IMG/VR virus record: IMGVR_UViG_3300033153_007039
Location: 1-46,929 of that record
Length of the DNA stretch: 46,929 nt
From: a virus
Reading direction: 5' to 3' (one strand)
Part shown: piece after piece, positions 2,131 to 25,284 of the stretch
How positions within the stretch are numbered: the stretch's first letter is position 1
Layout of the letters: each line of letters begins with the position of its first letter
Notes under the pieces: generated by a model
The model's database searches: none
What the model was told of the DNA's origin: nothing
Seen by the model: the letters and a program-made list of their open reading frames with translations, nothing else
Program-made: the position numbers and the translations under genes

Positions 2131-2872
2131 TGCAGTTGCCGAAGGCAAAGGAACAATCTTAAAATTCAATCCATTTACAGGAACACTCCAATGGCTTAAA
2201 GATTTAACAGAAATAGATTCTGATGTTTTGCCTAAATTAAATAATACTTATTATCTTGGAAATAAAGATTATAGATTTAAAGGATTTCTTTCAGAAGCAC
2301 AAATCGGAGATTCAACAAACTATCTTGATATTTCAGACACAGGGGTATTAACTTTAAAAGGCACAGCAAGGATAACTAAGGACTTATGGATAGATGCAGC
2401 AGGAATAAAAGCGCCTGGCGCTAAACCAGCTACTGAAATATCTCAAGGAAACTTAGAAAATTCTGCCTGGCAGTTTGATGATCAAGCTGTTGAAGCAAAT
2501 CAAGAAAGCGTAAGCTGGAGAATTGCCCCAGCTTATGACATGGACAGAAGCGAAGAAATTACAATAAGGATTGGCTGGAGTTCTGCTTCAACTGGAAATG
2601 TGAAATGGCAATTAGAATATAGATGGCTTGCTGAAGATGAAGATACAACATTAGGAGCAGAAGAAACTTTAACTGCAGTAAGTGATGCATCCACAACAGC
2701 AGACGGATTGGTTGTAACTGATATAACAGGAATAAACGCCCCAAGTTCAATAGATGCAAGTATAATTTTTAAACTAACAAGATTATCTGCTGATGTGCAG
2801 GATACTATTACAGATACAGTAAAACTTCATGGAATATGTTTTAATTATATCTCCAATAAATTAGGAGGATAG
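2039..2872 (+). CDS. Tail fibre/adhesin, C-terminal part (repeats + knob)
   Basis: The reading frame is open from just after the A6 run at 1941-1946; the first ATG is 2039. It starts with the last two or three 22-residue repeats. A linker follows, with a phrase typical of tail fibres (NTYYLGNKDYRFKGF, as in 'YLGSSSYRWKDLY'). The end is a domain of about 130 residues rich in beta-strand and Trp, probably the receptor-binding knob. No start signal precedes 2039, so independent translation is unlikely. I read it as the distal half of the gene that begins at 163. Confidence 0.7.
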   Translation: MSISDSVSAASSELQGQTITETLTITDTTTIAVAEGKGTILKFNPFTGTLQWLKDLTEIDSDVLPKLNNTYYLGNKDYRFKGFLSEAQIGDSTNYLDISDTGVLTLKGTARITKDLWIDAAGIKAPGAKPATEISQGNLENSAWQFDDQAVEANQESVSWRIAPAYDMDRSEEITIRIGWSSASTGNVKWQLEYRWLAEDEDTTLGAEETLTAVSDASTTADGLVVTDITGINAPSSIDASIIFKLTRLSADVQDTITDTVKLHGICFNYISNKLGG

Positions 2873-3002: not shown

Positions 3003-3599
3003 ATGACAGAAGCTAAATATAATAGAGCAAATTGGATCCAATATGTAACTGCTGTTTTAGTGATAGTTTCTTTGCTATTAAGTTTTGGAGCTTACACTAA
3101 AGATGTAGATGTTAATAACTTAAATCTTGAAAGACAAATTTCAGCATTAGATAAAAAAATTGATGCTGGATTAAGTGTTAATGTTGATATGACTGATGGA
3201 CCTAAAACAGATGCAATCTATGATGAAATATTCAAAAATGATGCTTATAAAAGTTTAGGTGAAACTTTAGCTTTAAATGAAATTGATTCAAAAGATTTCA
3301 AAAAAGTAGTTCGATCAGCTATTAATGCTGAATTAGAAGATACAGAAATAGAAAGTTATAAAGACATTGATCAAATTGTAGTTAAAGATATTGAAACATT
3401 GATTGTTGATGAAAATGTTAATGTTGAGCTTGATTTAAAAGTTTATTATCATGTAGATGATGATGACGATGAAGAAGGCAGAGCAAAAATATCCACAACA
3501 ATAACTGTTGAAGATGCTGCTAATGAAGACGAAAAAGATAGAGATGACGCAGAAATAGATAAAGACTACATAATTGATATAGATAAAATCTATGAATAA
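3003..3599 (+). CDS. Membrane-anchored acidic protein, unknown function
   Basis: The protein has 198 residues. A hydrophobic segment at about residues 14-32 (YVTAVLVIVSLLLSF) is preceded by a short basic/polar tail, so it is probably a single-pass signal anchor with the rest outside. A short coiled-coil-like stretch follows, then a very acidic C-terminal half with a DDDDDEE run. The start is firm: GGAGG lies nine bases before ATG. It stands alone between the fibre gene and a pair of candidate RNAs, under its own TATA promoter. I do not recognise a family. A role at the host membrane (lysis, superinfection exclusion) would be a guess. Confidence 0.75.
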   Translation: MTEAKYNRANWIQYVTAVLVIVSLLLSFGAYTKDVDVNNLNLERQISALDKKIDAGLSVNVDMTDGPKTDAIYDEIFKNDAYKSLGETLALNEIDSKDFKKVVRSAINAELEDTEIESYKDIDQIVVKDIETLIVDENVNVELDLKVYYHVDDDDDEEGRAKISTTITVEDAANEDEKDRDDAEIDKDYIIDIDKIYE

Positions 3600-3620
3600 A
3601 CCGAAAAGTTTTTATATTTC
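3598..3620 (+). promoter_or_regulatory. Archaeal promoter for short RNA
   Basis: ACCGAAAAGTTTTTATAT is a BRE/TATA element that overlaps the stop of the preceding gene. The same ACCGAAAAGTTT core starts the promoter at 15258. No coding region follows for about 400 bases, so it should drive the hairpin RNA beginning near 3637. Confidence 0.55.
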
Positions 3621-3636
3621 TTTTTTTTTATATTTT

Positions 3637-3690
3637 TGTGGGTATAGTTTCATTGCTAACCTGTAACTGATTTCTACCCACACCTTTTTA
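3637..3690 (+). ncRNA. Candidate short hairpin RNA
   Basis: TGTGGGTA (3637-3644) pairs perfectly with TACCCACA (3675-3682), giving an 8-bp stem with a 30-nt loop. A T-rich run follows, suitable for termination. The stem begins about 25 bases after a TATA box, exactly where transcription should start. No coding frame covers it. No known RNA family is recognised. Confidence 0.45.
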
Positions 3691-3710
3691 TAGAAATATT
3701 TAAATACTCT
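3691..3710 (+). promoter_or_regulatory. Archaeal promoter for structured RNA
   Basis: TAGAAATATTTAAATACT at 3691-3708 matches the BRE/TATA pattern seen before other transcripts here. The predicted start is near 3725-3730, which is the first base-paired element of the candidate RNA. Confidence 0.5.
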
Positions 3711-3722
3711 AATTCTTTATAA

Positions 3723-3975
3723 TTTGCACAGGTTAAAATGATAATCAATTTACAATCCAGATATGAGGACCAGAGGTTACGCGTGCGATAGTTCTGTGCA
3801 CTTTAAATAAGATAGAGAACATACTGGATTGGTTGGCAACTTATGAAAGTCGTCTTCCACAATGGCGAAGTAAAGAATTGCAATCCTTAACATTTATTTG
3901 GTTGTCTAAGTTTGGAAGAGGGGGATGGAAATAAGGTTGGTCATTAGCGCGTGGATTAATCACATTTAACCAGAT
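3723..3975 (+). ncRNA. Candidate structured non-coding RNA
   Basis: This non-coding stretch of about 250 bases is visibly richer in G and C than its surroundings and has its own TATA promoter. Perfect long-range pairings are TGCACAG 3725-3731 with CTGTGCA 3794-3800, CAATCCAG 3753-3760 with CTGGATTG 3824-3831, and TCTTCCA 3853-3859 with TGGAAGA 3913-3919. The first two interleave, so they form a pseudoknot or alternate. I compared it by eye with archaeal RNase P, SRP RNA, tRNA and group I intron core motifs and found no match. It is likely an RNA of unknown function. Confidence 0.5.
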
Positions 3976-3992
3976 TAAATACTGAGAAGTAT
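3976..3992 (+). promoter_or_regulatory. TATA box with overlapping inverted repeat (shared operator, copy 1)
   Basis: TAAATACTGAGAAGTAT contains the inverted repeat ATACT-GAGA-AGTAT running into a TATA-like box. A 16/17 match lies at 45080-45096 before the gene at 45162. The likely downstream gene here is 4044-4202. It may be a repressor or activator site shared by two transcription units. Confidence 0.45.
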
Positions 3993-4043
3993 GTTAAATA
4001 TAATAAATATATAAATTAAATACTTATATTAAATAATTATAAA

Positions 4044-5882: not shown

Positions 5883-6088
5883 AATTAACAGAAAAACAAA
5901 AAGATTTACTTAGAACGATGGTTGATAATTATTGTCAGATGTGTCATCGCCCAGAAAGAGAAGTTGGAAAATTAGAGATCCATAGAATCAAAAGAGGAAA
6001 TGCCGGAGGCAAATATTATCCAAATAATATTTTAGTAATCTGTAATGAATGCCACAAAAATTTACATGGAGATGAATTTAAATGTTAA
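5879..6088 (+). CDS. HNH nuclease (1)
   Basis: This is a compact 69-residue HNH protein. CxxC (CQMC), LEIHRIKRG with the first catalytic-type His, PNNILVICNECHKNLHG with the second CxxC and the final His. This is the whole HNH beta-beta-alpha-metal fold with little else. It probably nicks or cuts DNA and may be a free-standing homing or repair-type nuclease. It overlaps a second HNH gene by 7 bases. Confidence 0.75.
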   Translation: MKLTEKQKDLLRTMVDNYCQMCHRPEREVGKLEIHRIKRGNAGGKYYPNNILVICNECHKNLHGDEFKC

Positions 6089-6321
6089 AAAATAAAAGAT
6101 TTGTAAAAATAATAGGATATAAATGTGAAAAATGTGGAGTTAGAAAAAACTTAACAATTCATCATAAAGATAAAAATAAAAAAAATAATATTAGAAGTAA
6201 TTTAAAGTGTTTATGTAGAAAATGCCACGATCAAATTCATGGAATAATCATCAAAAAATCAAAACAACATAAAAAATATCAAAGAGGAACTAAAAAATGG
6301 AAAAAAAGAAAAAAAAAGTAA
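6082..6321 (+). CDS. HNH nuclease (2)
   Basis: This 79-residue protein has CEKCG, LTIHHKDKNKKNN with the HH catalytic pair, and CRKCHDQIHG completing the HNH zinc site. The tail is extremely basic (KKKSKQHKKYQRGTKKWKKRKKK) and presumably holds DNA. It differs from the neighbour at 5879 in the HH signature, so the two are not a recent duplication. Confidence 0.75.
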   Translation: MLKNKRFVKIIGYKCEKCGVRKNLTIHHKDKNKKNNIRSNLKCLCRKCHDQIHGIIIKKSKQHKKYQRGTKKWKKRKKK

Positions 6322-6407
6322 GTTGGTGGGAATGGAAAAAGAGAATTTGGAGATTGAGATTAGAGTTATATATATTAAATAAATTAGGGTATGAGTGGAT
6401 AATATGA
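6297..6407 (+). CDS. Possible Trp-rich micropeptide
   Basis: ATG 6297 opens a 36-codon frame encoding a Lys/Trp-rich, amphipathic peptide (KKVSWWEWKKRIWRLRLELY). It overlaps the HNH gene before it and ends in an ATGA with the SWIM gene at 6404. The coupling on both sides argues for a real gene; the small size leaves doubt. Confidence 0.35.
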   Translation: MEKKKKKVSWWEWKKRIWRLRLELYILNKLGYEWII

Positions 6408-6811
6408 TTGAAGAAGTAAAACAAACATATGAAGAACCAGAAGAATTAACCCCAAATAATGTGGTTTATTATTCAAATACATACAAAGAATTAAGGGCTT
6501 TAGATGATAAGAAATGGAAAACTTATGCAATCTTGCTGAAAGCTAAACGATTTCTAAGAGAAGGGTGCATAGAGTATTCAAAAGAGAAAAAATGCTATCT
6601 CTGCCTTCCTATTAAGGGCTACAATAAGACTACATATGAAATCAAAAGTTTAAAAGATAGACAATTTGAGTGTAATTGTCAATTTTATCAAAGAGTAGTC
6701 AAAAAACAAAATATTCCAGGACTTATTTGCTCGCACATCTGTGCTTTAAAATTACAATTAAAGATTTGGAATTGGAATAGAAGAAAAGACAAGGAGAAAT
6801 ATGAAAATTAA
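6404..6811 (+). CDS. SWIM zinc-finger protein (2)
   Basis: The protein has 135 residues from ATG 6404 (an in-frame GTG at 6395 is possible). An acidic N-terminus is followed by a beta-rich middle (CIEYSKEKKCYLCLPIKG) and a SWIM motif, FECNCQFYQ...CSH, near residue 90-115. This layout (beta strands and then SWIM) is like phage and transposase-linked SWIM proteins. Partner and target are unknown. Confidence 0.7.
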   Translation: MIEEVKQTYEEPEELTPNNVVYYSNTYKELRALDDKKWKTYAILLKAKRFLREGCIEYSKEKKCYLCLPIKGYNKTTYEIKSLKDRQFECNCQFYQRVVKKQNIPGLICSHICALKLQLKIWNWNRRKDKEKYEN

Positions 6812-6956
6812 AATAAATATTGAATTTAAATTGAAAAATCTTTTTGATTACAAGCATTTAAAACAAATAATTAAAGTTTATATGAGAACTATAGTTCATA
6901 AGTTTAATTTAAAAGGTTTTAAGATAGATTTTATTACCGAAAAATCTAATAGATAG
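6801..6956 (+). CDS. Small basic protein, unknown
   Basis: The 51-residue frame overlaps the end of the SWIM gene and is preceded by AGGAGAAAT, a fair ribosome-binding site. It is Lys/Ile/Phe-rich and probably helical. No motif is visible. Confidence 0.4.
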   Translation: MKIKINIEFKLKNLFDYKHLKQIIKVYMRTIVHKFNLKGFKIDFITEKSNR

Positions 6957-7021
6957 CAGTTCAAGAAGGAAAAATTTATTATCTTTGTCATGATTGTCAT
7001 AATAGAAAGAAATAAATAGTC

Positions 7022-7067
7022 TTTTTCTTTATATATATTGAACAACCATAGTTGTGCAACGATTAAA
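7022..7067 (+). promoter_or_regulatory. Promoter with palindromic operator
   Basis: A TATA box (TTTATATATA, about 7028-7037) is followed by ACAACCATAGTTGTGC, in which ACAAC (7042-7046) pairs with GTTGT (7051-7055). An inverted copy with one mismatch in 16 lies at 14445-14460. It sits over the expected transcription start of the HTH gene, so autoregulation is possible. Confidence 0.45.
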
Positions 7068-7617
7068 ATGGTAAAAACATGCGATCAAACTAAATGTTGA
7101 GGGACTTTCTCATTCAGCCATTGCTGATAAGCTAAATGAAGAATTTAATTCTGATATTTCTAAAGAAAATGTATTTAATTATTTAAAAAGAAATAAAAAT
7201 AAATCATTTCAAATATTAAAGGATACAAAAGACTTTGATCAAAAATTGGCTAAAACTTATTTTGATACTTTAAATCAAATAAATACTTTAAATAGTGAAT
7301 TATGGAAATTCTTTTATGAGATTAAAGCAGAACCAGAACTTAAAGATAAAATCATCAAATGCTCTAAATGTGGAAGAAGTATGGTTTTCCAGGCTCAAAG
7401 TTATGGATTGCTTTTAAAAACAGCAGAACAAATCCTTAAATCCATAGATCATGTAGATAAAGTAATGGGGAAATTAAAAGGAGAAAATTTAACTATAAAT
7501 TATAATATTGTAGATATGTCTAAAAAGCTTCAAATTGCTATGCCTCAATTATTTCATAATGCCGAAAGGCAAGGAATAATAAGAATTCTTAATAAAAAAA
7601 GATTAAAAGAATTATGA
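7068..7617 (+). CDS. HTH DNA-binding protein with zinc pair, start frameshifted (possible small terminase)
   Basis: A continuous protein is recovered only if one A is removed from the A5 run at 7073-7077: then ATG 7068 reads through MVKHAIKLNVEGLSHSAIADKL into the open frame to 7617, about 182 residues. As it stands the frame opens without a start until TTG 7246. Residues about 8-45 form a helix-turn-helix (GLSHSAIADKLNEEFNSDIS). Further on are a CSKCG pair and helical segments. HTH plus helical C-terminus is the usual plan of small terminase subunits, and no other candidate is seen, but it is far from the large subunit. A simple regulator is equally possible. Confidence 0.5.
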
Positions 7618-7778
7618 CAGAAGAAAGACCAAAATTATGTGAATATGCACATATTTGTGATTATGCTGATGATGATTGTTATGAAGATGATGGAATTAAA
7701 AAATATTGTCCTCATTATAGGAGGTTAAATGAAACCGAAAAGAGTTCTGAAATATTCTCCAATGGAAGAAGGAGATAA
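7614..7778 (+). CDS. Small Cys-containing acidic protein
   Basis: This 54-residue protein starts in an ATGA overlap with the preceding stop. Cys at residues 9, 15, 22 and 32 (CEYAHIC...C...YCPHY) could bind one zinc. It overlaps the next gene by 50 bases in another frame. Function is unknown. Confidence 0.5.
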   Translation: MTEERPKLCEYAHICDYADDDCYEDDGIKKYCPHYRRLNETEKSSEIFSNGRRR

Positions 7779-7932
7779 AAGATTTATTCCTTATTGTGAT
7801 TATCAACATCATAGGGGAATAATTAAATATCAATTACATCATAGGGGAATAATTAAATATCAATTCTATCCAACTTGTAAAAAAAGAGAATGCAGACATT
7901 TGATAAGACTTTCACTTGTTAATAGATTATAA
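7729..7932 (+). CDS. Small zinc-binding-type protein with internal duplication
   Basis: The protein has 67 residues, and the start is firm (AGGAGGTTAAATG). One Cys (PYCDY) lies before and two Cys plus a His (PTCKKRECRH) after a 10-residue sequence that is duplicated in tandem. The duplication lengthens the loop between the putative metal ligands and is probably recent, because the DNA copies are almost identical. The gene ends 6 bases into the convergent RuvB-like gene. Confidence 0.6.
   Translation: MKPKRVLKYSPMEEGDKRFIPYCDYQHHRGIIKYQLHHRGIIKYQFYPTCKKRECRHLIRLSLVNRL
7807..7866 (+). repeat. 30-bp tandem duplication
   Basis: The units 7807-7836 and 7837-7866 are identical except for the last base. 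They lie in frame inside a zinc-type small gene and add ten residues (HHRGIIKYQL/F). Confidence 0.9.
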
Positions 7933-9006
7933 TTCTTCCAAAACTTCTGAATAATTATTCTCATAACTTTCAGAAACTCCTACATCATTTCCAAAAGATA
8001 GAAAATCAATCTCATCAGGAGAAATACCTTCTACTATTTTATCTGCAATAAAATTCACTAATTCCAAATATCTTTTTCCAAACTTATCTCTTATTTCTGG
8101 ATTTTCTCTTAAATAAGTGTGTGCTAATGTTATTTCATCCATAGTTTTTTCACTATGTTCCTTCTCACTTTCTTTTTGTAATTCTTCATAAGAAACATTT
8201 TTGAAATTGGGTGCTAATTCTCTCCCTCTTGAACTAATCAAAATTACTCCTTTTCTAATTAAGTCAGGTTCTATATCTAATTTAATGTAATTCTCACTTC
8301 GTCGTAAGACTAAACTTAAATTTCTTAAACTTGCTTTCTTTATTGAATTAAGATGTTTTATATATTTTTCTTGTTCATCAGATAATCCAGAATAAATATT
8401 AATCTTCATTAATCTGAACACTTTAGTCAAATTCTTTTCATTTTTCTCTCCATATAATTCAACATATTCAATAATCTTTTTTAAAATTCTAATATTAAGT
8501 GTATAATTTATTAGATAACCTATACACTTATCATTTAATCCAATCTTTTTTAAGATTTTAGTTAAAGTTTCTTCATCAGGCTCATCAAATTCAATTCTCA
8601 TAAATCTATCCATTAATGGTTTGGGTAATCTTTCAGGTTCAGTTGTTGTTCCAATAAATGTAATATTCTTTAAGATATGCCTTTTTCCATCATCATAAAT
8701 TTCATTATCTTGAATAGCAGAATAAATAATTTCACTTACCTTTTCTGGAAGATTATGAATCTCATCAATTAAGATAATAGCATCATTTTTCGCTGAAAGC
8801 ATTAAAGTGATAATTTTCCTTTTACTCATAGCCCCATTTAAATAAATAAAAGGTTTTTTAGTTTCACAAGCAATCATCTTAGATGAATTATGAGAGATTA
8901 TTCCATTTGAAAGTATAAAATTCTTATTATCTTCAACAGATAAATCATACATATCTACTTCTTTAGAAGTAAATCTTATTTTTTCAATTTTAATCCTTTG
9001 TTCCAT
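7927..9006 (-). CDS. RuvB-like AAA+ ATPase, C-terminal half, preceded by split-intein C part
   Basis: The 359-residue frame begins with about 40 residues of an intein C-terminus: VDMYDLSVEDNKNFILSNG then ISHN, followed by Ser as +1 residue. The extein that follows is RuvB-like: Walker B IILIDEIHNLP (DEIH at residues 81-84), sensor 1 FIGTTTEPE, arginine-finger stretch LMDRF. A winged-helix end (SDEQEKYIKHLN...LIRKGVILISSRGRELAP) lines up with the RuvB C-terminal domain. A further 85 residues are extra. RuvB drives Holliday-junction branch migration in bacteria. Walker A lies in the separate gene at 9425-9922, so function requires protein trans-splicing. It is the last gene of the leftward operon and overlaps the HNH gene by 31 bases. 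Confidence 0.8.
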   Translation of the reverse strand: MEQRIKIEKIRFTSKEVDMYDLSVEDNKNFILSNGIISHNSSKMIACETKKPFIYLNGAMSKRKIITLMLSAKNDAIILIDEIHNLPEKVSEIIYSAIQDNEIYDDGKRHILKNITFIGTTTEPERLPKPLMDRFMRIEFDEPDEETLTKILKKIGLNDKCIGYLINYTLNIRILKKIIEYVELYGEKNEKNLTKVFRLMKINIYSGLSDEQEKYIKHLNSIKKASLRNLSLVLRRSENYIKLDIEPDLIRKGVILISSRGRELAPNFKNVSYEELQKESEKEHSEKTMDEITLAHTYLRENPEIRDKFGKRYLELVNFIADKIVEGISPDEIDFLSFGNDVGVSESYENNYSEVLEEL

Positions 9007-9703
9007 GGTTTTCTTTCTTTGTTCCAGTGTTCTTTTCCTTGTAAATTGTTTAAATTTTTAAGATGACATTTTTGAGAACAATAGATTTTCTTTCCTTTAA
9101 TTGCATAAAATTCTTTATGGCATACAGGACAAATCTTTTTCTTACTTTCCCTATATTTTTTCCATTTTTCCTTCATCATTTTACTTTGATTAGTTCTATT
9201 TTGCATATCTCTCTTATGTTGTTTTATATGACAAGATTGACATAAAACCATTAAATTTTCTATTTTGTTGTTAAAAGGATTTTTATCAATATGATGGACA
9301 ATTAAATCAAAATTATCATTTGTTTTTTCTTTCCCACAAATCATACATTTCCATTTAAAATTAGATTTTGCTATTTTTAAATAGTTTTTTCTATTTCCTT
9401 TCTTTGATTTTGGATTTCTTGCTATCATTCTACATATAATAAATAGTCGCTTGTATTTAAATCTTTTGTTTTAATAATTTGTCTTTTATTATCTCTAATA
9501 ATAAACCATTTATGTTCAGGGCTACATTTTAACCAACCTTTTTTAGTATGAATTATACATAGTTGCTTTTTTCCTGCATAACTTAATTGTGCTTTTTTAC
9601 TTTCAATTTTCTTTTTATTAAAATTATATGATAAAACCTCTTTTATTTTCTCTATTGGTTTTAATCCATTTGGAGTTTTAATTAAAGTTCCTTTAGGCAT
9701 ACA
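8887..9703 (-). other. Split intein interrupted by a free-standing HNH gene
   Basis: The intein N part occupies 9428-9703 (92 residues, Cys1 in CMPKGTLIKTPNGLKPIE, block B-like CSPEHKW). The C part is 8887-9006 (40 residues, ending HN before Ser+1). The two parts are in different genes, and between them lies a complete HNH nuclease gene whose ATG overlaps the N-part stop (ATGA). The sizes 92 and 40 are those of natural split inteins. The insertion point is one residue after the Walker A Lys-Thr, a favoured intein site. This is the fractured-gene layout described for some environmental phage genes. Confidence 0.8.
8976..9428 (-). CDS. HNH homing endonuclease inside fractured RuvB gene
   Basis: The protein has 150 residues. 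The HNH site is CMICGKEK...LIVHHIDKNPFNNKIENLMVLCQSCHIKQH at residues about 32-80. A second zinc ribbon (CPVCHKEFYAIKGKKIYCSQKC) follows, and the end is a PWNKG DNA-contact motif near the C-terminus. That is the plan of group I intron or intein-linked homing nucleases. Its start overlaps the stop of the intein N half and its end overlaps the start of the intein C half, so it is translated as a separate protein. It is expected to mobilise the split intein into an intein-free allele. Confidence 0.8.
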   Translation of the reverse strand: MIARNPKSKKGNRKNYLKIAKSNFKWKCMICGKEKTNDNFDLIVHHIDKNPFNNKIENLMVLCQSCHIKQHKRDMQNRTNQSKMMKEKWKKYRESKKKICPVCHKEFYAIKGKKIYCSQKCHLKNLNNLQGKEHWNKERKPWNKGLKLKK

Positions 9704-9922
9704 ATAAGTCTTTCCTGTTCCTGCATAACCACTAAATAACAAATTCCTTCTTTCACCTTTTTTCAATTTCTCTAAAATTAATTTCATAAAAACTTCTTGT
9801 TTTGGAGTAAAAACTACATCAGAGAATTTAGGTTCTTCAATTATCTCTCCAATCTCCTCTTCTTTTTCTTCATTTTCATTAACAAATTGTTTTTTTCCAA
9901 AATAATCTATAATCCATCCCAT
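9425..9922 (-). CDS. RuvB-like AAA+ ATPase, N-terminal half, followed by split-intein N part
   Basis: The protein has 165 residues. Residues 1-73 are extein: a variable acidic start, a PKFSDVVFTPKQEVFMKLI segment as before RuvB P-loops, and Walker A GYAGTGKT at residues 65-72. Cys74 then opens an intein N-domain that runs to the stop. The extein cannot bind and hydrolyse ATP alone, because Walker B and sensor residues are in 7927-9006. The start is ATG 9922, inside the end of the small zinc gene at 9907-10041. Homopolymer error cannot easily explain the split, because both downstream genes have proper starts exactly at the breaks. Confidence 0.8.
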   Translation of the reverse strand: MGWIIDYFGKKQFVNENEEKEEEIGEIIEEPKFSDVVFTPKQEVFMKLILEKLKKGERRNLLFSGYAGTGKTYCMPKGTLIKTPNGLKPIEKIKEVLSYNFNKKKIESKKAQLSYAGKKQLCIIHTKKGWLKCSPEHKWFIIRDNKRQIIKTKDLNTSDYLLYVE

Positions 9923-14580: not shown

Positions 14581-15231
14581 ATGGGATTAACAAAAGAACA
14601 AATAGAAGGACATAAACAAAGAATTAAAACAAGAAAGAAAAAAGGTTGGTGGCAATCTCCTAATGCAATTGAAAACATGAGACAAGCTCAATTGCATTTA
14701 AGTAAAGAAATAAAAGAAAAAAGAGCCAAAGCTATGAAAAATAATGATTGGTATAAATTTATTGGTTTTAGAAACTTAATAAAAAGAATAAATAAATTAA
14801 GGAATCCAAATATTAGTAAACAGGGAAATATAACTTTTAAATATGTTCTTTGTGAATTATGTAAAAAAGGTTTTTATAGTTATCCTATAGGCCATGGTAA
14901 ATGGAAAAAATATTGTTCTAAAAAATGTCAGATGATTTCTCAAGGAAATAGACTCAGAGGACAGAAAAAACTAAATTTTTGTGGAAAAAATAACCCCTCT
15001 TATACTAATGGAAAATACAAAGAAAAATATAAAAGAATTAGGGTTAATGGAGAATCTTATGATAAACATATATTCGTTTGTTTAAGGAAAATGGGACTTC
15101 ATAGATTGCCTAAAGGATGTTGTGTGCACCATATTGATCGAGATAAACATAATAATTCACCAGAAAATTTACAGCTTTTAGAAATAAACTATCATAACAA
15201 TTTGCATAAGATTCTGTGTAAGAAACAATAA
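14581..15231 (+). CDS. HNH homing endonuclease (3)
   Basis: The protein has 216 residues. The N-terminal third is basic and helical. A zinc ribbon (CELCKKGFYSYPIGHGKWKKYC..KC) comes in the middle, and a C-terminal HNH block has VHHIDRDKHNNSPENLQLLE then H-NNLHK. The order (DNA-contact, ribbon, HNH_3-type domain) is typical of free-standing homing nucleases of tailed viruses. It opens the rightward gene series from a leaderless promoter. What it was inserted into is not clear; neither neighbour looks interrupted. Confidence 0.75.
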   Translation: MGLTKEQIEGHKQRIKTRKKKGWWQSPNAIENMRQAQLHLSKEIKEKRAKAMKNNDWYKFIGFRNLIKRINKLRNPNISKQGNITFKYVLCELCKKGFYSYPIGHGKWKKYCSKKCQMISQGNRLRGQKKLNFCGKNNPSYTNGKYKEKYKRIRVNGESYDKHIFVCLRKMGLHRLPKGCCVHHIDRDKHNNSPENLQLLEINYHNNLHKILCKKQ

Positions 15232-15617: not shown

Positions 15618-15756
15618 ATTAGAAATATTAACAGCACTAACCTTAGTTCAAGGATATTTGCTTAAAGAAAATTATGATTTATCAGAATTACTTAATAGAG
15701 TAAAAGCTAATCTTCAAGATAATTATTTTAAAATTTTAAAAAATGGAAGAAAATAA
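15601..15756 (+). CDS. Small helical protein
   Basis: The 51-residue product (TELEILTALTLVQGYLLKENYDLSELLNRVKANLQ) is helical with leucine spacing that suits a coiled coil. It overlaps genes on both sides, so it is translated in series with the regulator pair and the chaperonin. Family unknown. Confidence 0.5.
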   Translation: MEKMTELEILTALTLVQGYLLKENYDLSELLNRVKANLQDNYFKILKNGRK

Positions 15757-17134
15757 ATATGCACACATTCAGGCAGCAGTAAATTTCTGCGATTTAATTA
15801 GAAGCACACTTGGACCTCGTGGGATGAACAAGGCAGTAATAAACAAGGAAACTGTTTTCACAAATGATGGTGCTACTATAATTGATCAAATTAATGTAAA
15901 TGACCCAATAGTTAATCTATTTAAAGAATTAGCAAAAAGTCAAGAGGAACTAATAGGTGATGGGACTTCTACAACAGTTATTCTAAGCGGACAATTACTT
16001 GATAATGCACTCACCTTACTTAATAAAGGGATTCATCCAACTACTATAATTAATGGATATTCTTTGGCAAAAGTGGAATGTATGAAGAAACTTAATGAAT
16101 TTAAAGAAAAAGGTGAAAAAGATAAAATTATTGAAACTGCATTTGGTTCTAAGATTACCCCAGATATAATGAAAATTTTAAAGAATTTAATTAATCAAGT
16201 GAAAGATTTTGAAAAATTAAGGATATACAAATGTGCTGGAGATCCAAAAGACTCAAAACTCTTTTTTGGATATATTTTTGATGGATTTACAATAAATGAA
16301 AGAATGGAAAACGAAATTTCTGGAAAAATTGCAGTATTAGATTATAGAACTAATGTAGAAGCATCTGATATGCACATTAGTCAAGTGGATGAACTTAAAA
16401 AAATAAATGAATATGAAAGAGCTTATAAAAAAGAGATTGTGGACAAATTAGTAGAACAAAAAATAAAATGTCTTTTTTATACTGATACTAACCCTGAATT
16501 TGAAACATATTTGACAGAAAAAGGAATTACAGGAATAGTAGTTTATCAAAGAGATGCTATTGATGGAATTTGTGAAGCCTTAAAAATAAACGCAACTTCT
16601 GACATAAAAAACATTTATTCTGCTGTAGGGCATATAAGATATGAAAAACCAAGAAGTATTTATATTACAGGAAATTCTGAAACACTTATCTTAAAAGGGC
16701 CAACAAAACAAACTACTGATGAAATTGAAAGAGCAGTTCATGATGTTGTTTCATTACTTAAACATGAAATAGATCAAGTGGTAGGTGCAGGTGCAATAGA
16801 AATTGAATTAGCAAAAAGAATAAGAGATTTAGCAGAAAATGTTGGTGGAAAAGAACAATTAGCCATAGAAAAGTTCGCAGAATCTATTGAATCAATTCCT
16901 TTAATAATTGCAGAAAATTGTGGATTAGACGCAATTCAGATTTTAGCAGCCTTAAAAACAATGCACAAAGAAAATCCAAATGTAGGAGTAGATATGGTTA
17001 AGGGAGTTTCTGATGCAAGGGAGAGAGGATTAGTAGAACCAGTTTTAGTAAAAATTCATGCAATTAATTCTGCAACAAATGTAGCAAATTTAATTTTAAA
17101 GACAGATAAAATTCTTATGGGAGAACAAAAATGA
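15743..17134 (+). CDS. Group II chaperonin (thermosome subunit), shortened
   Basis: At 463 residues it is about 80 shorter than cellular thermosome subunits. ATPase motifs are present: STLGPRGMNKA (21-31), NDGATI (41-46), GDGTST (72-77), GAGAIEIELA and NCGLDAIQILAAL. The N-terminal strand region of about 30 residues, parts of the apical domain and the Gly/Met tail are missing or reduced. Thermosomes fold proteins inside a double ring with ATP. A viral copy may fold capsid or fibre proteins, form its own ring or mix with host subunits. It follows the small regulators with overlap. Transfer from a host is likely, followed by trimming. Confidence 0.9.
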   Translation: MEENKYAHIQAAVNFCDLIRSTLGPRGMNKAVINKETVFTNDGATIIDQINVNDPIVNLFKELAKSQEELIGDGTSTTVILSGQLLDNALTLLNKGIHPTTIINGYSLAKVECMKKLNEFKEKGEKDKIIETAFGSKITPDIMKILKNLINQVKDFEKLRIYKCAGDPKDSKLFFGYIFDGFTINERMENEISGKIAVLDYRTNVEASDMHISQVDELKKINEYERAYKKEIVDKLVEQKIKCLFYTDTNPEFETYLTEKGITGIVVYQRDAIDGICEALKINATSDIKNIYSAVGHIRYEKPRSIYITGNSETLILKGPTKQTTDEIERAVHDVVSLLKHEIDQVVGAGAIEIELAKRIRDLAENVGGKEQLAIEKFAESIESIPLIIAENCGLDAIQILAALKTMHKENPNVGVDMVKGVSDARERGLVEPVLVKIHAINSATNVANLILKTDKILMGEQK

Positions 17135-17208: not shown

Positions 17209-17508
17209 ATGAAAGATACAAAATTCAAAAAAGGCCAGAAACCTTGGAATAAAGGAAAAAGATTTTCACAGATTGAAGGAGAGAAACATTGGAATTGGAA
17301 GGGTGGTATTACAAGATATAGACAGATAATTATACGGGAAGGTATAGAATTATCTTGTCAAGAGTGTGGTTCTAAAAGAAAAATCCAAATTCATCATAAA
17401 GATAAAAATAGAAGCAATAATAATCTAAGCAATTTAAGAGTTCTTTGTTCAATTTGTCACGCAAATCTACATAAGAATTGGGAGGGAAGATGGGGAAAAA
17501 AATCCTAA
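17209..17508 (+). CDS. HNH homing endonuclease (4)
   Basis: The 99-residue protein has N-terminal PWNKG and HWNWKGG motifs (DNA-contact NUMOD type), then CQECG, IQIHHKDKNRSNNNLSNLRVLCSICHANLH, a complete HNH site. Its last bases overlap the epimerase-type gene start. It is probably a mobile insertion between the chaperonin and the glycan genes. Confidence 0.8.
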   Translation: MKDTKFKKGQKPWNKGKRFSQIEGEKHWNWKGGITRYRQIIIREGIELSCQECGSKRKIQIHHKDKNRSNNNLSNLRVLCSICHANLHKNWEGRWGKKS

Positions 17509-18434
17509 TTACAGGAATTTCAGGATTTGCTGGAAGTCATTTAGCTGAGTATTGTTTATCTAAGGAATGTGAAGTTCATGGAACTATTAGATGGCGAAGT
17601 GATTTAAAAAATTTAAAAGAAATTCCACAAATACAATTACATGAATGTGATTTAACTGATGCTTATTCTATTAGAGATATAATCAAAGAAGTTAAACCAG
17701 ATTATATTTTTCATTTGGCTGCACAATCTTTTGTAAAAGCGTCTTGGACTAATCCTTCTCAAACACTTACTAATAATATAATAGGAGAACTTAATTTGCT
17801 TGAAGCAGTTAGAAATGCAAATTATAAACCAAGAATTATGATTGCAGGTTCTTCTGAAGAATATGGTCATACTGAGACTGCCTTGAATGAGGATAGCCCC
17901 CTTTTGCCATTGTCTCCCTATGGCGTGTCAAAAGTCGCTCAGGATCTTCTTGCTCAACAATATGAGAGATCATATGGATTAGATATTGTGGTAACACGAG
18001 CATTTAATCATACTGGCCCAAGAAGAGGGGATGTTTTTGTTTGTTCTTCTTTTGCGAAGCAGATTGCAGAAATAGAAAAAGGAAAAGTCCCAGTAATTCA
18101 TGTAGGAAATCTTGATGCAGAAAGAGATTTCACAGATGTAAGAGATATAGTAAAAGCATATTGGCTTGCTTTAGAAAAAGGTGAAAAAGGAGAAGTTTAT
18201 AACATTTGTTCTGAAACAACAATTCCAATAAAAAATATTTTAAGAAAATTATTAATGATGAGTAAATTAAAGATTGAGATAAGACAAGACCCAAAAAGAA
18301 TGCGCCCATCTGATTTAAAAGTTTTGGTAGGAGATTGCACTAAATTCAAAGAAAAAACAGAATGGACACCTTCTATAAAAATTGAACAAACACTTGAAGA
18401 TTTATTAAATTATTGGAGAAATAATGAAAACTGA
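17490..18434 (+). CDS. GDP-4-keto-6-deoxymannose reductase-like NAD(P)-dependent SDR
   Basis: The 314-residue protein has a Rossmann start (GITGISGFAGSHLAEY variant: ILITGISGFAGSHLAE), the active-site SSEEYG and YGVSK pair (Tyr-x-x-x-Lys), RAFNHTGP, NLDAERDFTDVRDIVKAYW and a C-terminal RPSDLKVLVGDCTKFKEKTEW. These phrases together are those of Rmd-type reductases that make GDP-rhamnose, rather than GDP-mannose dehydratase itself. ATG 17490 is chosen, with GGAGGG just before; the TTG at 17478 is less likely. No 4,6-dehydratase is in the window, so the substrate would come from the host. First gene of the glycan cluster. Confidence 0.8.
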   Translation: MGKKILITGISGFAGSHLAEYCLSKECEVHGTIRWRSDLKNLKEIPQIQLHECDLTDAYSIRDIIKEVKPDYIFHLAAQSFVKASWTNPSQTLTNNIIGELNLLEAVRNANYKPRIMIAGSSEEYGHTETALNEDSPLLPLSPYGVSKVAQDLLAQQYERSYGLDIVVTRAFNHTGPRRGDVFVCSSFAKQIAEIEKGKVPVIHVGNLDAERDFTDVRDIVKAYWLALEKGEKGEVYNICSETTIPIKNILRKLLMMSKLKIEIRQDPKRMRPSDLKVLVGDCTKFKEKTEWTPSIKIEQTLEDLLNYWRNNEN

Positions 18435-18555
18435 AAAACAAGTCAAAAGAAAATTAGAAGATTTAAAAAAAGAATGGGTTAAGTCAGAAGTTAATTCTAA
18501 TCAAAGAAAAAAAATAAATAGAGGTGTGGAAATGTTGGAGTGGGTATTACAATGA
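18424..18555 (+). CDS. Small helical protein
   Basis: The 43-residue, charged, helical product (KQVKRKLEDLKKEWVKSEVNSNQRKKINRG) overlaps the reductase gene before it and the glycosyltransferase after it (ATGA). Unknown; similar short helical proteins often sit between phage genes. Confidence 0.45.
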   Translation: MKTEKQVKRKLEDLKKEWVKSEVNSNQRKKINRGVEMLEWVLQ

Positions 18556-19235
18556 AAATAATTATGAGTTATTTACAAGAAGATGAAAAACTTAAAACTT
18601 GTTTGCATTCTCTTAAAAAATATTCTCCTAATGTTGAGATAGTTAAACTTCACTCTGACCCAAAGAAAACTAAATCTTCTGAACACGCTTTTGATACTTA
18701 TTTTGAAGAACATGGCATGGATGATGATTATATGATTTGGCATCCAGACATGATTGCAACTGAAGGATGGTATGAAAAATTAATGGAGTATTATGATTTA
18801 TTTGATGTGATTGGATGTAAATTAGTTTATCCAAATGGATTAATTCAGCATTATGGTGGAGCATTATATCCTGGACAAACTATTGCAGGGCCAGGAGCAG
18901 TTGGTGGACATCCTCATCAGCACTCTATGAATATTGGATTAAATGAACCATTATCTTGTCCTTATGTTACAGGCCCAAGCATGGTTGTTAAAAAAAAGGT
19001 TTGGGAAAAATTAAAAGGATGGGATCATTCCTATTGGTGTTATATAGATGCAGATTTTTGTATTAGAGCATTAAAGGAAGGTTTTACAGTTGGAGTTGTT
19101 CCAGTAACATTAATTCATAGTGAAGGAGAAGATCAATTAAAAAAAAGAACTAAAGAATATAACGCAAAGTTATTAAGTGAGGGCTGTGTAATATTTACAA
19201 GTAAACATATGGATTATTTATCTAAATTCAAATGA
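18552..19235 (+). CDS. Family 2-type glycosyltransferase
   Basis: The 227-residue protein has the GT-A plan: MKIIMSYLQEDEKLKTCLHSL opening, a DDDYMIWHPD acidic motif near residue 62, a Cys/Gly middle, and YWCYIDADFCIRALKEGFTVGVVPVTLIHSEG as acceptor and metal-site region near the end. It lacks signal or membrane segments, so it acts in the cytoplasm. Its place between the sugar reductase and a radical SAM gene suggests it transfers a modified sugar. Confidence 0.75.
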   Translation: MKIIMSYLQEDEKLKTCLHSLKKYSPNVEIVKLHSDPKKTKSSEHAFDTYFEEHGMDDDYMIWHPDMIATEGWYEKLMEYYDLFDVIGCKLVYPNGLIQHYGGALYPGQTIAGPGAVGGHPHQHSMNIGLNEPLSCPYVTGPSMVVKKKVWEKLKGWDHSYWCYIDADFCIRALKEGFTVGVVPVTLIHSEGEDQLKKRTKEYNAKLLSEGCVIFTSKHMDYLSKFK

Positions 19236-20077
19236 AATTACCAAGAAGATATAATTACGCAGAGGCATATCTTACCTTTAGATGTCCACTTAATTGCGAA
19301 TATTGTATTAATGATGATTCTGGAAAACTTGAAAGAAGAAGAAAAGAAATTTCTGGAAAAGAATGGGTTAAAGGATTAAATAGAATCGACTTTGGGAATA
19401 TTCCTCTAACATTAGGTGGTGGAGAACCAACACAACACGCAGATTTTTATGAAATATTAGAAAGATTAAATATGAATAAAGTAGATTTATTAACAAATTT
19501 AGAATTTGATGTAGAGAAATTTTTAGATAAAACAATTCCAGAAAGATTTAGTCAAGAAGAAAACCCTGCTTACAAATCAATAAGAGTTTCTTTTCATCCT
19601 GGACAAATGGACCCAGATGATTTAGTAAGAAAAGTAAAAAGAATCCAAGATGAAGGTTATGCAATAGGAATTTTTGGATTGAATCATCCTTTGAATATTG
19701 AAGATAATATTCAAATGTCTGAATTAGCAAGACAGAATGGAATTTACTTTTTTATTAAAGATTTTTTAGGAGAATATAGAGGACATACCTTTGGTTTTTA
19801 TAAATATCCGAATGCTATAAAGGGTGGAAAAAAAGAAGTATTATGTAAAACTAAAGAACTTTTAATAGACCCTGAAGGAGAGATTTATAGATGTCATAGA
19901 GATTTATATAGAAAAAAACATAAAGTGGGAAGTATTTTAGATCCTAATTTTAAAACAGATAAATTAGATAGATTTAGACCCTGTTTAAATTTTGGAGAAT
20001 GTAATCCTTGTGATGTTAAATTAAAAACTAATAGATTTCTACAAAAAGGAAATTGTCAGGTGGAGATTGTAAAATGA
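19232..20077 (+). CDS. Radical SAM enzyme (1)
   Basis: The 281-residue protein has the CxxxCxxC cluster as CPLNCEYC at residues 18-25 and GGGEPT near 64, the SAM-binding GGE motif. A further Cys group near the end (CHRDLYRKKH, CLNFGECNPC) suits an auxiliary iron-sulfur cluster. These enzymes use 5'-deoxyadenosyl radicals for difficult changes such as epimerisation, dehydration or C-methylation. It overlaps the genes on both sides by 4 bases. Substrate unknown; in this setting it could be a sugar, nucleotide or peptide. Confidence 0.8.
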   Translation: MKLPRRYNYAEAYLTFRCPLNCEYCINDDSGKLERRRKEISGKEWVKGLNRIDFGNIPLTLGGGEPTQHADFYEILERLNMNKVDLLTNLEFDVEKFLDKTIPERFSQEENPAYKSIRVSFHPGQMDPDDLVRKVKRIQDEGYAIGIFGLNHPLNIEDNIQMSELARQNGIYFFIKDFLGEYRGHTFGFYKYPNAIKGGKKEVLCKTKELLIDPEGEIYRCHRDLYRKKHKVGSILDPNFKTDKLDRFRPCLNFGECNPCDVKLKTNRFLQKGNCQVEIVK

Positions 20078-20850
20078 GTTGTGGGAAATGTGGGCATAGA
20101 GCTATACCTCATGATTTAAAAGAATTACCTGAAAATACAAGATTATTGAGTATCTGTTGCACAAGGGGAAAGCCAGAATTAGTTCAAGAGATGTTAAAAT
20201 CTTTTGATGAAACAAAATCTGAAGGAACAGAAATAGTTTTATTTGTTTGGAAAGATGACCCAAAAGTTGAACAATATAAAAAAGCTTTAGAGGGGAGGAA
20301 TGTTCTTTGGGGAGATAAATTATTTATGGGAGATGTCTTGAATTATATTTCAACAGAAGTTTATCCAGATGTAGATTATTATCAAAATATAAATGATGAC
20401 CATTATTATGTTGTAAAGGGTTGGGATAAAATGATGACAGGAGTTCTTGATGATAATAAAGGATGGGGGGTTTCTTATTGTAAAGGAAAAGATAATGCAC
20501 ATAATCCTAATGCAGAAATTGTTTCTGGAAAAATAGTTAGAGCAATAGGGTGGTATGTTTATCCAGGATATAGGCAATTTGGATTAGAACCATATTTTAT
20601 TTCACTTGGAGAAGCTTGTGGATTTTTTCTAATTCCAGAAGTAATTGAACATCGTTCTATTAATGCAGGATTTGGTGCAAAAGATGATATTTATGCTTTT
20701 ATTTATTCTCCAGAAGAAGCAATTAATGCAAGAAAAGCTTACGATGAATGGCAAGAACACAAAGCTGGATGTTTTGAAAAAATTAGATTAGCAATTAGAA
20801 AAGAAATGCAGGAGGCTGTGGGAAAGAAAACTCCTTATATGTTAAAATGA
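20074..20850 (+). CDS. Glycosyltransferase-like protein (GT-A type)
   Basis: The 258-residue protein begins with a CxxC (MSCGKCGHRA), then RLLSICCTRGKPELVQEMLKSF, typical of a GT-A N-terminus, and YYQNINDDHYYVVKGWDKMM with a DxD-like metal motif near residue 110. The region GLEPYFISLGEACGFFLIP may hold the acceptor site. ATGA overlap with the radical SAM gene fixes the start at 20074. Function in glycan assembly is likely; donor unknown. Confidence 0.6.
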   Translation: MSCGKCGHRAIPHDLKELPENTRLLSICCTRGKPELVQEMLKSFDETKSEGTEIVLFVWKDDPKVEQYKKALEGRNVLWGDKLFMGDVLNYISTEVYPDVDYYQNINDDHYYVVKGWDKMMTGVLDDNKGWGVSYCKGKDNAHNPNAEIVSGKIVRAIGWYVYPGYRQFGLEPYFISLGEACGFFLIPEVIEHRSINAGFGAKDDIYAFIYSPEEAINARKAYDEWQEHKAGCFEKIRLAIRKEMQEAVGKKTPYMLK

Positions 20851-21338
20851 AAATAAAAACAACATTTGTAGAAGAATATTGGAAAAATAAATCTAAATTT
20901 AAGATAGATGATTGGACCCCAAAAAAGGAAGACCATATTGTTTTAATTAATCTTATTGAAAAATTTAATCTTAAATCTTTTTTTGAAATTGGAACTTATA
21001 CCGCATTTACTACAGAACTTCTTGCAACTCATCCAAACATAAAGAGGTGGAAATCTATTGATACAAACCCTCATATTTATCATCCTAATATAATTAAAAT
21101 AGATAGTGGAGAATATATTCCAGGAATTAATTGTTTTCCAGAGGGAGAGGATGAACAATATGATTTAATTTTCATTGATGGGGATCATCAAAATGTAAAA
21201 AGAGATACAGAATTAGCATTAAGATTAAAACCAATAGTTATTGCTTGGCATGATTATAAAGAATTATTTGTTCAAAGAGATGTAGATTTATTTAAACCAG
21301 ATAATGTGGAGGCAAATGTAGCATGGAAAAAAGTATAG
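20847..21338 (+). CDS. SAM-dependent methyltransferase-like protein (1)
   Basis: The 163-residue protein has a class I methyltransferase core: FFEIGTYTAFTTELLAT (motif I), then YDLIFIDGDHQNVKRDTELALRLKPIVIAWHDY, characteristic of the Methyltransferase_24 group found in glycan and O-antigen loci. A relative lies at 21726, sharing the IDxxHxDxExDTELALRLKP-WHDY end. Overlaps both neighbours. Confidence 0.75.
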   Translation: MKIKTTFVEEYWKNKSKFKIDDWTPKKEDHIVLINLIEKFNLKSFFEIGTYTAFTTELLATHPNIKRWKSIDTNPHIYHPNIIKIDSGEYIPGINCFPEGEDEQYDLIFIDGDHQNVKRDTELALRLKPIVIAWHDYKELFVQRDVDLFKPDNVEANVAWKKV

Positions 21339-21736
21339 TTTATGCTTATGTTGTGGCAGATTTACTTCATATTGGGCATTTAACTCATTTAGAGAATGCT
21401 AAGGCTCTTGGAGATAAATTAATTGTTGGTGTTTTAACTGATGAAGCAGTAATGGAAAAGAAAAAGAAACCAATTTTACATTTTGAAGAAAGATTTAGAT
21501 TAGTAAAATCTCTTAAATGTGTTGATTGTATAGTGATTCAAACAACATATTCTCCAATTCATAATATTAAAACTTTAAAACCAAATATTTTAATGGAGAG
21601 CGATAGCCATAATGAGCAAGACATAGAAAATGCTAAAAGAGCTATGGAACCTTGGGGTGGAAGGGTTATAGTTACACCATATTATCCTGAACAATCTTCA
21701 ACTAAAATTAAGAAGGAGATTAAAAATGCAGGCTAA
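21323..21736 (+). CDS. Cytidylyltransferase (nucleotidyltransferase, HxGH type)
   Basis: The 137-residue protein is about the length of glycerol-3-phosphate cytidylyltransferase. HIGH at residues 16-19 (LLHIGHLTHLENAK), RF...K in the middle and SSTKIK near the end are the family motifs. It transfers CMP (or another NMP) from NTP to a phosphorylated alcohol or sugar. The next-but-one gene is LicD-like, which uses CDP-activated choline-type or related groups, so the pair may attach a phospho-alcohol to a glycan. The substrate cannot be read from the sequence. Confidence 0.8.
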   Translation: MEKSIVYAYVVADLLHIGHLTHLENAKALGDKLIVGVLTDEAVMEKKKKPILHFEERFRLVKSLKCVDCIVIQTTYSPIHNIKTLKPNILMESDSHNEQDIENAKRAMEPWGGRVIVTPYYPEQSSTKIKKEIKNAG

Positions 21737-22274
21737 AGAATATGTTGATTGGTATAATGAGAAGTTTATACAAAGTTTAAGTAATGGGAATAACCTTTGT
21801 TTTCCTAAAGAGGACCAATTAGTTTTGATTGAACTTATTGAAAAATATGATATAAAATCTGTTTTAGAGTTTGGAACTTTTGAAGGGTGCACAACAAATT
21901 TAATACATTTACATCCAAATATTAAAAGAATAAAAACACTTGATTGGGGAAAACCCTATCCTATTGAACGATATGGTTCTTATTTTAAAAAAGCAAAAAA
22001 TGTTGAATTAGTATTTACCCAAACATCAGATTGGAAACCAAATGGAGAATATGATTTGGTTCTTATTGATGCAGGACATAGAGATTTTGAAGTAGAATAT
22101 GATACTGAACTTGCTTTAAGATTAAAACCTAAAATAATTGTTTGGCATGATTATCCTTTTAATCTTGAAGAAGATGAACGAGGTCATATAGGTGTTAAAT
22201 CAGTTGTTGATAATTTAGCAAAAACTATGGATATTAAATTTGGGGGAAAGAAGATAGCATGGTTGAAGATATGA
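21726..22274 (+). CDS. SAM-dependent methyltransferase-like protein (2)
   Basis: The 182-residue protein is a paralogue of the one at 20847: VLEFGTFEGCTTNLIHLHPNIKRIKTLDWG (motif I and II), YDLVLIDAGHRDFEVEYDTELALRLKPKIIVWHDYPF. It presumably methylates a sugar hydroxyl or a related small group. The two differ in length at the C-terminus. Confidence 0.75.
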   Translation: MQAKEYVDWYNEKFIQSLSNGNNLCFPKEDQLVLIELIEKYDIKSVLEFGTFEGCTTNLIHLHPNIKRIKTLDWGKPYPIERYGSYFKKAKNVELVFTQTSDWKPNGEYDLVLIDAGHRDFEVEYDTELALRLKPKIIVWHDYPFNLEEDERGHIGVKSVVDNLAKTMDIKFGGKKIAWLKI

Positions 22275-22837
22275 AACAAACTATGAAAAATACTTTATTT
22301 AAGTTCGATGATATTTGTAAAGAGTTAGGCATTACATTTTTTTTACTTCAAGGGACTTGTTTAGGATTTTATAGAGATGGTGGATTTATTCCTGGAGATG
22401 GAGATATTGATTTATATGTAAAATGTAGTAAGAAAAAGTTAATAAAATTATTTGAAGAATGTGAAAAGAGGCAAATATATCCAGAGAAAAATTGTTTTTC
22501 TAATGTTTTTGAGAATGCTAAAGGAGAAGAAATAAATAGACATCTTAAAGTTGGAAGTTATTGGATTGATTGTTATTTTAAAATGTTAGACGATAGAAAA
22601 ATGTTTATGATTAAAACCGATAAAGTAGAAGTTTTTGGAAGAACTTTTAATTGCCCTCACCCTGTTGATGCTTACTTAACTTTAGAATTTGGAAATTGGA
22701 AAGTTAAATGTGGACAAAAAAGTAGAGGCAGAGGTTCTCCACTTCCTGAACCTTCAAAAGATTTATCTTGGGAAGAATTATTGGCTGCACCAAAATGGTT
22801 AAGAGATACTAAAAGACATGATAGGGGTAAAATATGA
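22259..22837 (+). CDS. LicD-family phosphotransferase
   Basis: The 192-residue protein has the LicD signature near residues 28-55: LLQGTCLGFYRDGGFIPGDGDIDLYV, close to GT-LG-R-GFIPWDDDID. It belongs to the nucleotidyltransferase-fold enzymes that add phosphocholine or related groups to surface glycans. The second Asp of the usual DDD set is Gly here (GDGDID), but two Asp remain. ATG 22271, in an ATGA overlap with the stop before, is an alternative start. Fits functionally with the cytidylyltransferase at 21323. Confidence 0.8.
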   Translation: MVEDMKQTMKNTLFKFDDICKELGITFFLLQGTCLGFYRDGGFIPGDGDIDLYVKCSKKKLIKLFEECEKRQIYPEKNCFSNVFENAKGEEINRHLKVGSYWIDCYFKMLDDRKMFMIKTDKVEVFGRTFNCPHPVDAYLTLEFGNWKVKCGQKSRGRGSPLPEPSKDLSWEELLAAPKWLRDTKRHDRGKI

Positions 22838-23913
22838 AAAGATTAATGGATGGAACAAAATTACTTTGGCATATGGATAGGGTTAAAGAACACTATGATG
22901 AAGGCAAAAGGATTTCTCCTTTATTGATTAATATTGGGGCAACTAAAAAATGTAATGCTAATTGTATTTATTGTTATGGAGTTTTTCAAGGCAAAGATCA
23001 AAAATCCACAATAGACAGAGAACCATTACTCCATTTATTTTATTCTGCACCAAAATTAGGTGTTAAAGCTATTGAAATAATTGGAGATGGAGAACCAACA
23101 TTAAATCCTCACATCTATGATGCTATGGATATTGGAAAAAAAGAAGGATTAGACATGGCATTTTCTACTAATGGAATTTTACTTGACACTGATGAAAAGA
23201 GAGAAAATGTTTTAAGGAATTGTTCTTGGATGAGATTTAATCTATCCGCAGGAACAAGAGAGGGCTATAAAAAAATTCATAGAGTTGATAAGTTTGAGAA
23301 AGTTGTTGAAAATATAAAAAGAATGGTTGAATTAAAGAAATATCCATATGGATATCCATGTGATGTTGGATTACAAGCAGTTTATGTTCCAGGACTTATG
23401 GACCAAGATATAATTGATGAATCGATTTTAGCAAGAGATTTAGGAGTTGATTATTTATTAATTAAACAATGTTCTCTCCCAGAAAAAGGGGTTGTTGCAG
23501 ACATCTCTTTTGATGTAAATGATTATGATAAACCAGAAATAAAAAGTATTTTAAAAAGATGTGAAAGTTTATCAAATGATAAAACAGATATAGTTGTTAA
23601 ATGGGAATTTATGCAAATAGGAAAAAGAAGGCCATATGATCATTGTGTTGATGCCCCCCTAATTTTTCAGGTTAGTGGAAATGGAAAATGTTATCCTTGT
23701 GGTTATCTTTTTGGAAATGAAGAATATGAATATGGAGATTTAAACACGCAATCACTTCAAGGGATTTTAGAAAGTGAAAAATATTGGGAGATAATAGATA
23801 AAATGAAAAAGTTTGATGTTCATAATGATTGTGAAGGCTGTTGTAGACATGATAAAATAAATGAATTTTTATCTGAATATTTAGATAAACCAAATGGAGT
23901 TAATTTTATATGA
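22834..23913 (+). CDS. Radical SAM enzyme with SPASM-like end (2)
   Basis: The 359-residue protein has CNANCIYC at residues 40-47, GDGEPTLNP near 88-96, and two more Cys groups towards the C-terminus (CYPCGYLFG and CEGCCRHDK) as in SPASM or twitch domains that carry extra iron-sulfur clusters. Such enzymes modify peptides, cofactors or sugars. It overlaps genes on both sides by 4 bases. Distinct from the radical SAM at 19232 in length and cluster layout. Confidence 0.8.
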   Translation: MKRLMDGTKLLWHMDRVKEHYDEGKRISPLLINIGATKKCNANCIYCYGVFQGKDQKSTIDREPLLHLFYSAPKLGVKAIEIIGDGEPTLNPHIYDAMDIGKKEGLDMAFSTNGILLDTDEKRENVLRNCSWMRFNLSAGTREGYKKIHRVDKFEKVVENIKRMVELKKYPYGYPCDVGLQAVYVPGLMDQDIIDESILARDLGVDYLLIKQCSLPEKGVVADISFDVNDYDKPEIKSILKRCESLSNDKTDIVVKWEFMQIGKRRPYDHCVDAPLIFQVSGNGKCYPCGYLFGNEEYEYGDLNTQSLQGILESEKYWEIIDKMKKFDVHNDCEGCCRHDKINEFLSEYLDKPNGVNFI

Positions 23914-25204: not shown

Positions 25205-25284
25205 CAATTTTAGAATTTATAGCATATAAGATATTTAGAATGCCTAAATTTTGTTACGATAATTGGGGGTATTATTATCCATGA
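25201..25284 (+). CDS. 27-residue peptide between transketolase subunits
   Basis: The frame begins in an ATGA with the first subunit and ends in an ATGA with the second (MTILEFIAYKIFRMPKFCYDNWGYYY). Both overlaps suggest translation, if only to pass ribosomes along. The N-terminal half is hydrophobic. No known function. Confidence 0.4.
   Translation: MTILEFIAYKIFRMPKFCYDNWGYYYP

Follow-up and report, generated by a model that had tools for sequence, protein, structure and literature searches.

How a gene whose reading frame breaks off directly after the Walker A motif can still yield a working ATPase is the question raised by a locus on the minus strand of the viral record IMGVR_UViG_3300033153_007039 of IMG/VR, the whole stretch of which (46,929 nucleotides) is called here the window. 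Three overlapping open reading frames (ORFs) make up the locus, ORF1 (9922-9425), ORF2 (9428-8976) and ORF3 (9006-7927). ORF1 encodes 73 residues of an AAA+ ATPase ending in ...LLFSGYAGTGKTY, followed by an intein-N of 92 residues that begins with Cys. ORF2 encodes an HNH nuclease, and ORF3 encodes a 40-residue intein-C followed by the remainder of the ATPase. We consider it very likely that this is a fractured gene, in which a RuvB-like AAA+ ATPase is split after Walker A by a natural split intein, with an independent HNH gene in the gap. The order of parts had been proposed in the initial annotation, and coordinates and profiles agree with it. That annotation also had the starts and stops meeting exactly as ATGA, which holds for the ORF1/ORF2 junction, whereas ORF2 and ORF3 overlap by 31 nucleotides.

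The intein halves can be recognized separately, but best together. Intein-N alone matched Pfam PF14890 (5e-7) and TIGR01445 (1.4e-4), in each case just below the cut-off, and intein-C alone matched PF14890 (3.5e-7) as well as TIGR01443, the latter above the cut-off (2.8e-8, 33.8 bits versus 15.6). When the two halves were joined, PF14890 reached 7e-17 and 62 bits, above its cut-off of 35.8. A six-frame search of the whole record returned exactly two intein places, the intein-N and intein-C of the RuvB-like gene, and no further intein in the window. Pfam, NCBIfam and the six-frame search thus agree that the N- and C-terminal intein blocks read from the letters alone are present. The segments carry what is expected of a class 1 split intein, that is, N-terminal Hint blocks with Cys1, blocks F and G with His-Asn, and a +1 Ser. 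The sizes of the halves had been called typical of natural split inteins, and they are indeed close to those of the fast metagenomic split inteins gp41-1 (88/37), gp41-8 (94/50) and IMPDH-1 (106/42), which also have Cys1 and +1 Ser (PMC11766414). ORF2 matches PF01844 above the cut-off (1.5e-5), and its product combines the HNH motif with a C-terminal Cys4 finger-like motif and a KPWNKGLK tail.

With the intein removed, the best match is of the RuvB type, as anticipated, whether judged by profile, by PDB sequence or by fold. The RuvB ATPase domain (PF05496, 51.5 bits) and RuvB_C (PF05491, 34 bits) both lie above their cut-offs, and the joined exteins score 86 bits against NF000868, versus 69 bits for the C-terminal part alone. 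The top PDB sequence match of the extein family is RuvB 3pfi (2.3e-20). A fold search with the model of an intein-free relative (L031; mean predicted local distance difference test score (pLDDT) 65, with most of the AAA+ core at 70-90) placed RuvB chains first (best 7pbl) and clamp loaders lower. A clamp-loader identity, suggested by a PHROG match, was rejected because RuvB ranked ahead in all three comparisons and RFC chains came lower. The C-extein contains the Walker B motif IDEIH, sensor 1 TTTEP, an arginine-finger-like PLMDRF, the RuvB_C winged helix and an extra C-terminal stretch. The protein thus shares with bacterial RuvB the AAA+ motifs, the IDEIH Walker B and the winged helix, but it differs in the extra stretch, in an identity of only ~20-26% in fold alignments and in falling far below the NF000868 equivalog cut-off of 282 bits, so that by this test it is RuvB-like and not an orthologous RuvB. 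The right label is therefore RuvB-like motor, with a predicted role at Holliday junctions. In a phage collection, the only RuvB match was weak and unannotated (28.8% identity).

The site before insertion is preserved in relatives of the virus. These were gathered via the terminase gene TerL first and then with an extein alignment; a single-sequence scan of viral records with ORF3 gave no matches, and TerL and alignment queries were needed. Four related viruses encode the RuvB-like gene without an intein: L017 (381 residues), L016 (306), L030 (300) and L031 (387). An uninterrupted GTGKTY-SSKM joint had been predicted for such an allele, and L031 reads GTGKTYSSKM, while L030 has GTGKTYSSMM, and L017 and L016 both have GTGKTYSAMM; relative to the predicted joint, no residue is gained or lost. 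The host gene is therefore intact in L016, L017, L030 and L031 and broken exactly at the intein site in the window, the pattern by which Dassa-type fractured genes are recognized. Separately, the gene lacks its C-terminal stretch in L030 (5840-6493) and L016 (1432), where it was lost or replaced without any sign of a link to the intein; L030 keeps a remnant (FGTDVGIEESYENNY...) after an inserted lysine-rich ORF.

A second fractured copy was found on a 42.9-kb contig from another metagenome (L018; ORFs at 5920-6453, 6447-6902 and 6872-7951). The insertion site, the relative frames and the 31-nucleotide HNH/ORF3 overlap are identical to those of the window; in both viruses the intein halves lie on separate ORFs, each frame with its own stop and start, as does the HNH gene, and Cys1, the block B His (SPEH), the penultimate His, the terminal Asn and the +1 Ser are all present. 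With TerL proteins only 53% identical, the two viruses are distant from each other. Amino acid identity is 53% for the N-extein, 57% for the C-extein and about 26-57% for the remaining shared genes, whereas the intein and HNH segments are 71-80% identical (Table 1), suggesting that intein and HNH moved as one homing unit. Over the fractured stretch, nucleotide identity is 77%. With the overlap excluded, the ratio of non-synonymous to synonymous difference (pN/pS) is 0.31 (0.19-0.48) for intein-N, 0.34 (0.23-0.52) for HNH and 0.36 for intein-C, and the intein and HNH segments are thus under purifying selection. The overlap itself is 100% identical, as expected of bases read for two proteins, and the 42-nucleotide identical run around it is the longest in the alignment (P=0.012, triplet shuffle). 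Moreover, the intein/HNH unit shows less synonymous difference (pS) than the exteins, 0.52 versus 0.65 (bootstrap P=0.023). Transfer of the whole unit seems to postdate the divergence of the host gene, a conclusion held with moderate confidence as synonymous sites are nearly saturated.

Taken together, the parts suggest how the gene could work. One message would be translated into three proteins via coupled start-stop overlaps, the ATGA and then the dual-coding overlap. Intein-N and intein-C would associate and trans-splice through the conserved residues named above, giving a motor of 392 residues. Where relatives co-infect, the HNH nuclease would most likely cut their intein-free alleles close to the joint, and repair would copy the whole intein-N/HNH/intein-C unit. 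A simple read-through product is impossible because the other two frames of the HNH stretch contain 14 and 18 stops and, since the break lies directly after Walker A, a working motor should need trans-splicing. Judged from the reading frames, it is very probably made in this way or not at all, unless ribosomes shift frame twice.

Several points weigh against this reading or parts of it. Fractured examples number only two, as scanning viral records with ORF1 or the intein halves returned the L018 contig alone and no third case. The pN/pS interval for intein-C is wide (0.14-0.84). The pS difference is modest because of the near-saturation, and the unit could owe its higher identity to stronger functional constraint as well. 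Visual inspection upstream of ORF2 and ORF3 showed no obvious Shine-Dalgarno site, so that translational coupling is only assumed. Finally, RuvA (PF01330) had no match in six related viral records, which are possibly incomplete, and for this reason the motor may act otherwise than bacterial RuvAB, although a host could supply a RuvA.

Of the other explanations, the one that survives best leaves the fracture as it is but takes the HNH gene for a free-standing nuclease, unrelated to the intein, that inserted there and contributes nothing to its spread, the intein spreading passively or by another nuclease. The window does hold further HNH genes (14581-15231 and 17209-17508), and the HNH cleavage site is only putative. 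However, between the two viruses the HNH gene has diverged about as little as the two intein halves, unlike the rest of the genome, and the shared overlap ties the 3' end of HNH to intein-C, which makes this explanation unlikely. A second possibility, which we judge improbable, is that programmed ribosomal frameshifting fuses the three ORFs into a contiguous cis-splicing intein. A single shift of -1 (or +2) close to the stop would take ribosomes from ORF1 to ORF2, and the frame relations are conserved. However, inspection by eye revealed no canonical slippery heptamer ahead of the ORF1 stop, and the junction differs between the viruses, ORF1 ending in TGA in the window but in TAG, one codon further on, in L018. 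In addition, HNH and ORF3 both start at a conserved ATG of their own, the 31-nucleotide overlap is conserved as dual coding, and split inteins of this size function in trans (PMC11766414). Lastly, HNH nucleases do occur within contiguous inteins and both fractured records are metagenome assemblies, but it is very unlikely that assembly or sequencing frameshifts broke up what is really one contiguous intein with an HNH domain, or that the intein has decayed to a pseudogene. A single frame would require two frameshifts per record, the same frame offsets, start codons and fully conserved overlap recur in two independent records of separate metagenomic origin despite their divergence, and the segments are under purifying selection; sequencing error had already been doubted in the initial annotation.

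The fractured gene with its split intein may have a counterpart in the TerL gene of two other viruses of the group, L039 and L042. Here the TerL intein is open over 282 codons and contains, in the +2 frame, an HNH gene of 171 to 179 codons. Both in these inteins and in the window (9703 to 9428) the HNH start lies 275 nucleotides past the Cys1 codon, in the same relative frame, and the TerL-intein and window HNH proteins are related (33% identity over 111 residues). Over the HNH stretch of the TerL inteins, pN/pS is 0.23 in the HNH frame versus 0.94 in the intein frame. Nevertheless, the intein frame is stop-free across HNH, which occurred in 0.3% of codon-resampling trials (P about 0.003), the two records not being independent draws because they are related. 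The predicted structure of the TerL intein, made from two sequences, had a mean pLDDT of 34, too low to be informative. The TerL intein seems to stay whole by being read through the nuclease gene in another frame, and such an overprinted intein is a plausible intermediate toward fracture. In our judgement the chances are even that, in this virus group, the Hint endonuclease site is where HNH genes insert into inteins, out of frame, after which the intein is either overprinted (TerL of L039 and L042) or split (window and L018); the direction and order between overprinting and fracture are only suggested. If this is true, a path from contiguous to split inteins would become visible. A literature search for an overprinted nuclease within a cis-splicing intein found none.

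Table 1. Parts of the fractured gene in the window and TerL inteins of related records
Feature	Position	Strand	Basis
N-extein, 73 residues, RuvB-like AAA+ ATPase, ending at Walker A ...GYAGTGKTY	9704..9922	-	alignable up to the joint with four intein-free alleles
Intein-N, 92 residues, Cys1, block A CMPKGTLIKTP, block B KCSPEH; stop TGA 9427-9425	9428..9703	-	profiles; 75% identity to L018
Free-standing HNH nuclease gene, 150 residues	8976..9428	-	PF01844; 71% identity to L018
Overlap of HNH 3' end and ORF3 5' end, 31 nucleotides, two frames	8976..9006	-	100% identity to L018, within 42-nucleotide identical run
Intein-C, 40 residues, own ATG, block F YDLSVED, block G NGIISHN, +1 Ser	8887..9006	-	TIGR01443 above cut-off; 80% identity to L018
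C-extein, 319 residues; stop 7929-7927	7927..8886	-	profiles, PDB sequence, fold
TerL intein with internal HNH	L039:1882-2727, HNH 2157-2672	+	intein frame stop-free
TerL intein with internal HNH	L042:3226-4071, HNH 3501-4040	+	intein frame stop-free

The origin of natural split inteins, which are both uncommon and useful, has yet to be settled. In cyanobacterial DnaE, the intein halves are encoded far apart in the genome, without an endonuclease gene between them. The fractured genes described by Dassa and colleagues in 2009 reportedly include gp41, NrdJ, IMPDH and others, with a newly described endonuclease family that is Vsr-like, whereas the nuclease of the window is HNH; we know of none in a RuvB-like gene. 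The initial annotation had pointed to such genes as precedents, and the layout is indeed theirs. In these genes, for which that work is cited in PMC7090010, PMC10448857 and others, a split intein breaks the gene and an endonuclease gene lies in the gap. Cys1, +1 Ser and the half sizes also match those in the window (PMC11766414). The DnaE intein (Ssp/Npu) likewise trans-splices naturally, with Cys1 and similar halves (Npu 102/36), but has +1 Cys instead of +1 Ser (PMC11766414). An HNH gene in a split intein is also known already, from PolB of the Pseudomonas jumbo phage MIJ3, where a replication gene lies in two ORFs with half an intein each and a free-standing HNH ORF (orf154) between them, block G ending in HNS (PMC6892783). 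There, however, the intein sits in the DNA polymerase B gene of a phage of bacteria, and block A is printed as beginning SVDGST, with Ser and not Cys. New in the window are the RuvB-like host gene, whose product apparently requires protein trans-splicing, the probable archaeal virus, the layout conserved between two viruses and the dual-coding overlap of HNH and intein-C. Among the papers of the library searched, none combined a split intein with an archaeal virus. The virus group offers intein-free, fractured and overprinted-type states, making the route to split inteins testable, and the split intein itself is a candidate trans-splicing tool.

The virus had been assigned to archaea, and it probably does infect them, since it encodes a thermosome-type chaperonin of 463 residues (15743-17134, plus strand; 302 bits for the thermosome model versus 91 bits for GroEL). 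A group II (thermosome-like) chaperonin is also encoded by the L018 virus (47% identity). No host or provirus was found in the genome contigs scanned with the RuvB-like alignment and with TerL. The two further HNH-type genes of the window, both on the plus strand, lie on either side of the chaperonin gene. A sugar/surface block (17478-29201, plus strand) comprises a GDP-mannose dehydratase-like gene, two radical SAM genes, LicD, the N-terminal half of a transketolase, methyltransferases and two glycosyltransferases. In the L018 virus (G010), a tail protein (L036:3617-7540, minus strand) carries an ordinary in-frame intein with LAGLIDADG-like motifs recognized by eye, and its homologue in the window (41443-43884) is without that intein.
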